Shown here: positions 34,948 to 37,842 of the stretch, piece by piece
Layout of the letters: every line of letters starts with the position of its first letter
Numbering within the stretch: position 1 is the first letter of the stretch
Source: Thermococcus sp.
GTDB taxonomy: Archaea; Methanobacteriota_B; Thermococci; Thermococcales; Thermococcaceae
Assembly: GCF_015521605.1 (NCBI RefSeq)
Contig: NZ_WANV01000010.1
Span: forward strand, 1 to 40,780
Reading direction: 5' to 3'
Length of the DNA stretch: 40,780 nucleotides
The notes under the pieces: model-generated
The model's input: only the letters and a program-made list of their open reading frames with translations
Database searches by the model: none
Told to the model about the DNA's origin: nothing
Made by a program: the position numbers and the translations under genes

Positions 34948-36168
34948 ATGGATTACGTTCCCCTGATTCTGGGGCTGGTTATGGGAGTCGTTACTTCATA
35001 TACCGATATAAAGACCGGATTCGTTTTTGACACCCACATCTTCCCGACGCTAACCCTCATAGGAAAGCTCCTCGGATGGGAGGAAGAAGAGGAAGGGGAG
35101 GAAGACCTTCCGGGATGGGTTTCAAAGCTCATAATACCCGCCGTCGAGGTCGGGATACTCTATTACATATACCTCGGAATCAGCCGGGGGGATGCACTCC
35201 TGGCCGCATCGGGATTCATGGGGCTTATGTTGGGCCTCATCCTGGGGCTTCTCCTGTACTACCTTGGGGCATGGGCAAGCGGCGACGCGGTGATACTCGC
35301 CGGATTTTCCGCACTCCTGCCCTACGCACCGGCAACGGCCTCGGTCGTTGCCCCATACACCGTTGAGTATCCCCTCTACCCCCTGACGATACTGATCAAC
35401 AGCATCATAGCGGTGTTTCCCTTCATCTTCCTTTACTCCCTCGGCGTGCTCATCGCCAGGAGGAAGTTCGGGGAGCTGAAAGGTATATTCACCGACAGGG
35501 CGAGGCTTACACTTGAGGTCTCCCTCTGGATAATGGCCGCCCTCGGCCTCAGGCTGATTCTCCACGACCTGACCGGGGTGTCCATGGCTGGAATCTGGTC
35601 GTGGCTCTTCACGATAGCAGTCATCTACGCCCTGGGGAAGTTCAGGAAAGCGGGGGATCTCATGGGACTTGCGGTGCTGGCATACCTGGTCTATCAAGAA
35701 CCATCTGCGGCAGTGGTGGCGTTTCTGAGGCTCCTTGCCGTGCTGTACATCTTCAAGGTCTTCCTATCCCTCGTAAAGTTCATGCGCACCGGGATCCTGA
35801 TGGAAGAGGTCACGGTGGATGAGCTCAGGGAGTGGGACATTCTGGGTGAGACCGTCTTTGAGAAGGACGGAGAAATCCTCAGGGACAGGACGGATCCATT
35901 CACAAGGATAAAGAACGCCCTCCTGAGTGCCGACCTGAGCGCCCTCCACCCGGACTACGGCAGGGTTATAGCGTCCCCAACAGCCGAGGGACTGACCGGG
36001 GAGCAGATAGAAGAGCTGAAACGCCTCGTTGAGGAGGGAAAACTCGAAAACCTCTTCCTAAGGAAGAAGTCGATGCCCTTCGCTCCGGCCCTCTTCCTCG
36101 GCTTCCTGATAAGCTACTTCTGGGGCGATATCTTCTGGTGGATTCAGCTCAAGATGGCGGGGCTGTAA
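34948..36168 (+). CDS. Prepilin peptidase, EppA/A24-like
   Basis: 406 residues, start after GAGGTGAAATC. It is a polytopic membrane aspartic peptidase. The first catalytic Asp is Asp20 in SYTDIKTGFV and the second is Asp113 in ASGDAVILAG, equal to the GxGD motif of family A24 although the first Gly is replaced by Ala-Ser. It has an acidic loop after residue 45 (EEEEEGEED) and a long soluble insert (about residues 285-375). It is larger than FlaK-type enzymes and fits the EppA group, which cleaves class III (QxxxE) signal peptides like that of the gene immediately upstream. Confidence 0.83.
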   Translation: MDYVPLILGLVMGVVTSYTDIKTGFVFDTHIFPTLTLIGKLLGWEEEEEGEEDLPGWVSKLIIPAVEVGILYYIYLGISRGDALLAASGFMGLMLGLILGLLLYYLGAWASGDAVILAGFSALLPYAPATASVVAPYTVEYPLYPLTILINSIIAVFPFIFLYSLGVLIARRKFGELKGIFTDRARLTLEVSLWIMAALGLRLILHDLTGVSMAGIWSWLFTIAVIYALGKFRKAGDLMGLAVLAYLVYQEPSAAVVAFLRLLAVLYIFKVFLSLVKFMRTGILMEEVTVDELREWDILGETVFEKDGEILRDRTDPFTRIKNALLSADLSALHPDYGRVIASPTAEGLTGEQIEELKRLVEEGKLENLFLRKKSMPFAPALFLGFLISYFWGDIFWWIQLKMAGL

Positions 36169-36176
36169 GAAAATGA

Positions 36177-36182
36177 TTTAAA
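36177..36182 (+). promoter_or_regulatory. TATA box of the tandem guide RNAs
   Basis: TTTAAA centred at 36180, 24 bases before the 5' end of the predicted H/ACA RNA stem at 36204; the spacing is ideal. Confidence 0.7.
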
Positions 36183-36203
36183 ACCGTCCCCGAACATCTA
36201 TCC

Positions 36204-36261
36204 GGCCCGGCGTCCGCCCACCCCGCGGAGGAGTGAGGCGGGGATTCCGGTCGGGCCAACA
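36204..36261 (+). ncRNA. H/ACA box pseudouridylation guide RNA
   Basis: A lower stem GGCCCGG (36204-36210) pairs with TCGGGCC (36251-36257). An upper stem CCCCGC (36221-36226) pairs with GCGGGG (36238-36243). Between them is an internal pocket, 10 bases on the left and 7 on the right (attccgg). The apical loop GGAGGAGTGAG has GGA and TGAG elements that could form a K-loop. ACA stands at 36259-36261, one base after the stem. The right side of the upper stem is 15 bases before ACA, the distance H/ACA RNPs require. The implied target has form CCGGAAU-UN-UGGGCGG; no match is claimed. Confidence 0.72.
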
Positions 36262-36319
36262 GGGGGATGACGAGCTTTTGCTTTGCCGAGCGGTGATGAA
36301 CACGCCCTTCACTGACCCC
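36262..36319 (+). ncRNA. C/D box 2'-O-methylation guide RNA
   Basis: C box ATGACGA (36267-36273), 12-base guide, D' box CCGA (36286-36289), C' box GTGATGA (36293-36299), 12-base guide, D box CTGA (36312-36315). Both guide lengths equal the archaeal standard exactly. GGGGG (36262-36266) can pair with CCCC (36316-36319) for the terminal stem. It starts at the base after the H/ACA RNA's ACA box. C and D' each differ from consensus by one base. Target not identified. Confidence 0.75.
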
Positions 36320-36320
36320 G

Positions 36321-36944
36321 TTATTCTATGAGCCCCTTAACAATCTCCATGACCTCGTAGAGGCTCTCAACGTTGTGGTCGCCTTCAACGCCCTCGTGGG
36401 GGTTTATCGCTATGCTGACGTCGGCCTCCCTAAACATGCTCAGGTCGTTGTAGCCATCGCCCACCGCAACGGTAAGCTCCGGCCTTAACTCGTTCTTCAG
36501 CCCGCGCAGGATGACCCCCTTGCTCTTGAAGTCAACCAGGGACTTCACCTTTCCGGTGACAACGCCGTTCTCGTCAAAGACCAGCTCGTTGGCGAAGACG
36601 TAATCAACTCCGAGCTCCCCCGCTATCCGCTCTGCGAGGCACATGAGACCACTGCTCAGTATGGCTATCCTGAAGTCGTTTGTTCTCAGAAACTCGATGA
36701 GCTCCTTCGCGCCGTCCATGTACTCAACCGAGTTCGCCCACCCCATTATCTCCTCCCTCGTGTGGCCCCTCCAGAGGGAGGCATCGAGCTCGGCCCACTT
36801 CACGTAGTCAATCTTTCCGGAAAAGAAGAGCTCGGCGTATTCCTTTCCCTTCTCCCATGTCCCGAACCTCTTGTGGAGTTCCACCCAGCTGGATACGGAT
36901 TTGACCAGAGTCCCTTCGAGATCAAAAGCTATGAGCCTGACCAT
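36321..36944 (-). CDS. HAD-superfamily phosphatase, SerB-like
   Basis: 207 residues from ATG 36944, with GGTGGTAAG. HAD motif I is FDLEGTLV (DxEGT variant), II SSGL in IAILSSGLM, III Lys in SLVDFKSKGVIL, and IV VAVGDGYNDLSMFREAD. The cap domain (about 15-80) is helical. The overall pattern is that of phosphoserine phosphatase-like enzymes, though the DxE motif means the acid/base role is filled by Glu. Its stop abuts the C/D RNA at 36319. Substrate not certain. Confidence 0.86.
   Translation of the reverse strand: MVRLIAFDLEGTLVKSVSSWVELHKRFGTWEKGKEYAELFFSGKIDYVKWAELDASLWRGHTREEIMGWANSVEYMDGAKELIEFLRTNDFRIAILSSGLMCLAERIAGELGVDYVFANELVFDENGVVTGKVKSLVDFKSKGVILRGLKNELRPELTVAVGDGYNDLSMFREADVSIAINPHEGVEGDHNVESLYEVMEIVKGLIE

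Positions 36945-36984: not shown

Positions 36985-37842
<858 letters not shown>

Follow-up and report, generated by a model that had tools for sequence, protein, structure and literature searches.

A probable Thermococcus orthologue of the Pab21/snoR9 gene, with an H/ACA and a C/D guide RNA behind one promoter

An H/ACA guide RNA and a C/D box guide RNA that abut in the gap between two convergent genes of Thermococcus sp. raise the question of whether they form one gene and, if so, whether that gene yields one RNA or two. The stretch of DNA analysed (contig NZ_WANV01000010.1, positions 1–40,780; hereafter the window) carries upstream of them a gene for 406 amino acids (34948–36168, + strand), named prepilin peptidase in an earlier note on this DNA, and downstream a convergent HAD-type gene for 207 amino acids (36321–36944, − strand; name likewise from that note), the stop codon of which abuts the 3′ end of the RNA; both were recognized as open reading frames and by synteny. 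The earlier note had read two guide types, one promoter, no spacer and two 12-nucleotide C/D guides at this locus, had left the choice between a precursor and a composite guide open, and had proposed Rfam models, conservation across Thermococcales, compensatory changes and a search for rRNA targets as checks, each of which, as described below, speaks for the gene. In our reading, held with good confidence, the window gene is the Thermococcus orthologue of the Pab21/snoR9 gene, with two guides behind one archaeal promoter, and produces a precursor of two RNAs.

The locus (36203–36329, + strand) is matched by the Rfam family RF00065 (snoR9) over the whole of its model (positions 1–128 of 128), with a score of 106.2 bits against a gathering score of 90 bits and an E value of 5.9e-24, and is accordingly a member of that family. 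The H/ACA guide Pab21 of P. abyssi constitutes the 5′ end of a single 127-nt transcript annotated as the C/D guide snoR9 (230,449–575, − strand; PMC4652768), and an RNP reconstituted with Pab21 is active in pseudouridylation (PMC3726423); our genome search returned positions 230449–230575 (−) of genome G066, exactly the published coordinates. The joint arrangement is therefore already known from Pyrococcus and RF00065, and the joint gene cannot count as new, since the Pab21/snoR9 transcript has been published (PMC4652768). Two points are apparently new: the H/ACA half has been lost repeatedly from lineages that keep the C/D half, and the circular RNA sR01 of T. kodakarensis can be assigned to the Pab21/snoR9 locus. 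RF00065 is typed in Rfam as a C/D-box snoRNA only, a label that conceals the H/ACA guide at positions 1–59 of the model.

The window gene and Pab21/snoR9 of Pyrococcus have both halves, their order, spacing, guides and boxes in common, but diverge in the sequence of the stems and the spacer; the window gene also differs in its D′ box (CCGA), its C box (AUGACGA) and an A–A at the pocket-closing position. Whereas the window unit lies between the 406-aa and HAD-type genes, neither of these was found near the nine loci of the Pyrococcus genus (g2). HgcF (RF00058), encoded in the same genome (G000:C40:4841–5013), resembles the H/ACA half in having hairpins with K-loops and ACA boxes, but comprises several H/ACA units in a row with other guides; P. 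abyssi Pab35 likewise has three H/ACA units in a row (PMC4652768).

The H/ACA guide (36204–36261) begins with a hairpin (36204–36258) and is matched with 80.2 bits by a covariance model of this half (R1), of which the window sequence is itself a part. Its lower stem, read as 7 bp in the earlier note, has 8 bp including one G–U (36204–36211 with 36250–36257), while the 6-bp upper stem of that note stands (CCCCGC/GCGGGG, 36221–36226 with 36238–36243). The upper stem is capped by a K-loop (GGA..UGA; GGAGGAGUGAG, within 36221–36243), a predicted L7Ae site. Between the two stems, the pocket is formed by a 5′ guide, GUCCGCCC (36212–36219), and a 3′ guide, UUCCG (36245–36249), and the ACA box (36259–36261) lies 14 nt past the pocket-closing position. 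These are the elements of an archaeal H/ACA guide, in which an ANA box was sought 14–15 nt from the upper stem, and the fold is of type 10/5/9 as defined in PMC4652768. Counted from the K-loop over the 10 bp sought, the GA stem consists of six standard pairs and a G.G/G.A/A.G step, with a tenth position that is A–A here and U–G in Pyrococcus.

The C/D box guide RNA follows immediately, with an expected excised extent of 36262–36322 by analogy with sR01. A short terminal stem (GGGG, 36263–36266, with CCCC, 36316–36319) encloses the C box AUGACGA (36267–36273), guide 1 or D′ guide GCUUUUGCUUUG (36274–36285), the D′ box CCGA, a variant of CUGA (36286–36289), the C′ box GUGAUGA (36293–36299), guide 2 or D guide ACACGCCCUUCA (36300–36311) and the D box CUGA (36312–36315), so that all four boxes of an archaeal C/D RNA are present and both guides are indeed 12 nt long. 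The same layout was parsed automatically in 81 of 84 loci, and the other three are alike by eye, one of them with an altered C box region; the C box reads AUGACGA in 35 and AUGAUGA in 28 of the 81. The stretch from guide 1 to the C′ box, about 7 nt in the window, measures 18–25 nt including the D′ box in L048, L049, L044, L045, L052, L053, L054, L157 and L158 (genomes G050, G055, G047, G045, G013, G004, G032, G022 and G026, respectively), several of which have a GC-rich hairpin there.

Might such motifs arise by chance in a GC-rich intergenic stretch? The folding energy of the whole RNA would fit that explanation, with a z-score of −0.12, and is uninformative as evidence; since, in addition, the minimum-energy fold of the window RNA closes the pocket and thus differs from the productive fold, folding energy alone could not reveal this RNA. 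Conservation already refutes the explanation, which we regard as practically nil in probability: an exact pattern of the C/D half occurs in 83 of 94 Thermococcales genomes, while a reversed control pattern had no match, and one further locus, in which the second guide differs by one base, was found in G029 through RF00065. The E value of the Rfam match, the recurrence of a TATA-like stretch at a comparable distance in the genomes with both halves and the covariation of the H/ACA stems likewise argue against it. A scan of 85,000 genomes for the C/D pattern outside Thermococcales found it in no other archaea and returned scattered bacterial matches only, which look like chance. Some of the Thermococcales genomes without the pattern are incomplete metagenome-assembled genomes (MAGs); in G019, a single contig of 99% completeness, neither half was found by pattern and covariance-model searches.

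Covariation was assessed in an alignment of 29 rows, picked from the fused set (genomes with both halves) and G003. In the H/ACA stems 96.3% of cells are paired (helix 1, the lower stem, 95.4%; helix 2, the upper stem, 97.7%), and eight of the 15 pairs change on both sides, with 36 double-sided change cells as against 12.0 in shuffles and 0–3 when slid; in helix 2, CG is switched to GC in 12 of the 29 sequences. The alternative upper fold of minimum energy was rejected, being paired in 71.5% of cells with covariation no better than that of shuffles, and covariation thus supports the pocket fold.

The assembly contains only a partial 16S and no 23S rRNA, and the rRNA of relatives was therefore used for the target search, with positions given in the numbering of the relative G001. 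In the window itself, Rfam matched a single rRNA, a 5S rRNA gene at 37716–37837 (− strand; RF00001, 84.1 bits). Guide 1 forms 11 contiguous Watson–Crick pairs with 23S GAAAGCAAAAGC, a run equalled in one of 200 Markov-shuffled rRNA sets, and guide 2 forms ten with 23S CGAAGGGCGTGG, equalled in five of 200, for which reason each pairing is only suggestive by itself. Both sites lie in the 5′-terminal 220 nt of 23S, a G lies opposite the fifth nucleotide upstream of D or D′, and the pairing is conserved in the relatives tested. Stronger evidence than the length of pairing comes from the guide cores, which are essentially invariant throughout the order: CUUUUGCUUU is present in 81 of 81 parsed loci and CACGCCCUUC in 80 of 81, the one exception retaining a G–U pair. 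The predicted 2′-O-methylation targets of the C/D half are G207, through the D′ guide, and G55, through the D guide.

With one C beside the upper stem left unpaired, the H/ACA pocket accommodates 16S GGAA[U]UGGCGGG: UUCC of the 3′ guide pairs with GGAA immediately 5′ of the target U, and UCCGCC of the 5′ guide with GGCGGG. This pairing is short (4 + 6 bp), and the site is the best in 16S in its register although not the top one overall by simple scoring. It is preferred because the substrate of Pab21 has a U as the nucleotide 3′ of the target U (PMC3726423), as here, while the higher-scoring 23S sites in register have an A. The predicted pseudouridylation target is accordingly U867 of 16S.

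Upstream of the hairpin stands the TATA box TTTAAAA (36177–36183), the TTTAAA of which (36177–36182) had been read as a single TATA box in the earlier note. The 61 fused genomes have an A/T-rich, TATA-like stretch that spans roughly −32 to −20 relative to the start of the H/ACA half, with an A/T content of 92–98% at −25 to −23; the best match reaches at least six of eight positions in 60 of the 61 loci (five in the remaining one), compared with 11 of 61 downstream control windows. The halves are adjacent in all 61 cases, with 4–8 nt from ACA to the C box, which bears out the absence of a real spacer and leaves no room for a promoter between them. Two independent genes that merely abut, each with its own promoter, are therefore very unlikely; the C/D half does occur alone in several lineages, as such genes would allow, but it is the H/ACA half that the TATA-like stretch precedes, and the start site predicted in T. 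kodakarensis, in the part of PMC9014305 concerned with sR01, falls at the H/ACA 5′ end.

The sR01 data from T. kodakarensis also bear on the fate of the transcript. Table 1 of PMC9014305 lists for sR01 (TKOcandSno19) a circular junction at 47786–47847 and a predicted start site at 47910. Placed on genome G011, which C/D boxes at five other listed coordinates help to identify as that of T. kodakarensis, the 62-nt circle reads CGGGGGATGAAGAG...CTGACCCCGTAT and is exactly the C/D half; its guide sequence identifies the locus as the same as that of the window gene. The circular reads (395 in the wild type and seven in the ligase knockout; PMC9014305) begin 2 nt past the ACA box and cover the C/D half only, and the start site lies 2 nt upstream of the H/ACA hairpin. 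Circular sR01 was not detected by RT-PCR, for which the authors suggest heterogeneous junctions (PMC9014305); the passages of that paper on sR01 make no mention of the preceding H/ACA guide.

Because the circles span the C/D half only and the start site coincides with the H/ACA 5′ end, the published sR01 entries favour a two-RNA precursor, one of the two possibilities raised in the earlier note, over the other, a genuine composite guide. In the latter, an RNA of about 118 nt would stay whole and carry H/ACA and C/D RNPs side by side, coupling pseudouridylation of 16S with methylation of 23S. The annotation of a joint transcript in P. abyssi (PMC4652768), a linker from ACA to the C box of at most 8 nt in all 61 genomes and the retention of the pair in Pyrococcus outside the usual gene gap, and where the strand is inverted, are compatible with such coupling. 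We nevertheless consider it unlikely in view of the C/D-only circular reads listed for T. kodakarensis, of the location of the targets in different ribosomal subunits and of the persistence of the C/D half in 17 loci without the H/ACA half, which it evidently does not need. As only the 127-nt transcript is annotated in P. abyssi, the uncut RNA may also be stable.

For the two-RNA precursor, the following course may be proposed. The primary transcript would start at the H/ACA hairpin, where L7Ae would bind the K-loop and Cbf5, with Nop10 and Gar1, the pocket and the ACA box, and this half would convert the U of 16S GGAA[U]UGGCGGGG (U867 in the relative) into pseudouridine. The 3′ half would fold as a C/D RNA, bind L7Ae, Nop5 and fibrillarin, and methylate G207 and G55, both close to the 5′ end of 23S. 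The halves are probably separated at the junction of ACA and terminal stem, cleavage near the ACA box in the window organism being suggested by analogy with sR01, and some C/D halves may be circularized by the RNA ligase Rnl.

The 84 Thermococcales loci comprise 61 with both halves, 17 with the C/D half only and six with an altered or decayed H/ACA half, namely decayed hairpins in G141, G064, G137, G039 and G052 and a replacement of ACA by ACG in G003, the H/ACA half of which may still work. The 62 strong matches of the H/ACA covariance model (60 bits or more) are those of the 61 fused genomes and G003. Relocated copies were sought in genomes without the H/ACA half, where the matches were weak (27–40 bits) and the inspected ones came from other H/ACA RNAs whose guides differ.

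In 74 of the 84 loci the two convergent genes of the window flank the unit, and in one locus the HAD-type gene alone was found nearby. In nine of the 74 (G037, G024, G015, G005, G003, G030, G060, G067 and G062) the unit stands on the opposite strand relative to these genes in the same gap, which suggests several small local inversions. In G022 and G026 (L157 and L158), where the H/ACA half is gone, the C/D half starts directly past the stop codon of the upstream gene, and the C/D RNA may hence be excised from the 3′ end of the mRNA of that gene. The C/D-only RNA of G030 and G060 (L174 and L175) has no clear TATA box upstream and may arise by read-through from the HAD-type gene that precedes it.

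Parsimony on trees built from a fragment of RNA polymerase B gives 8–10 changes of the fused state. If the fusion is ancestral, two of the trees imply nine losses each and the third implies 13, a rough count since topologies disagree (for example on G067), G124 groups oddly, rooting was at the midpoint, G052 and G124 were omitted from two trees and altered copies count as losses. The RNA polymerase fragment of G124, a MAG, groups with genus g6 and its RNA locus resembles that of Pyrococcus, a mismatch that is possibly a binning error. Remnants of the H/ACA half in G064, G141, G137 and G039 show that these lines once had it and lost it; the remaining C/D-only lines, genera g3 and g4 and most of g6 among them, may never have had it.

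A broader reading, which we hold to be evenly balanced, treats the H/ACA half as a 5′ module that a core C/D gene can lose: it would have stayed fused through relocation and strand inversion and been lost perhaps at least nine times while the C/D half was kept, with the RNA acting as a precursor that is cleaved at the ACA box or, in certain species, as a double RNP left uncut. Thermococcales that are related and share an unchanged target sequence but differ in having one pseudouridylation guide amount to a natural experiment, through which the costs or benefits of a single rRNA pseudouridine, and likewise the processing of a joint H/ACA–C/D transcript, become testable in a genetically tractable archaeon.
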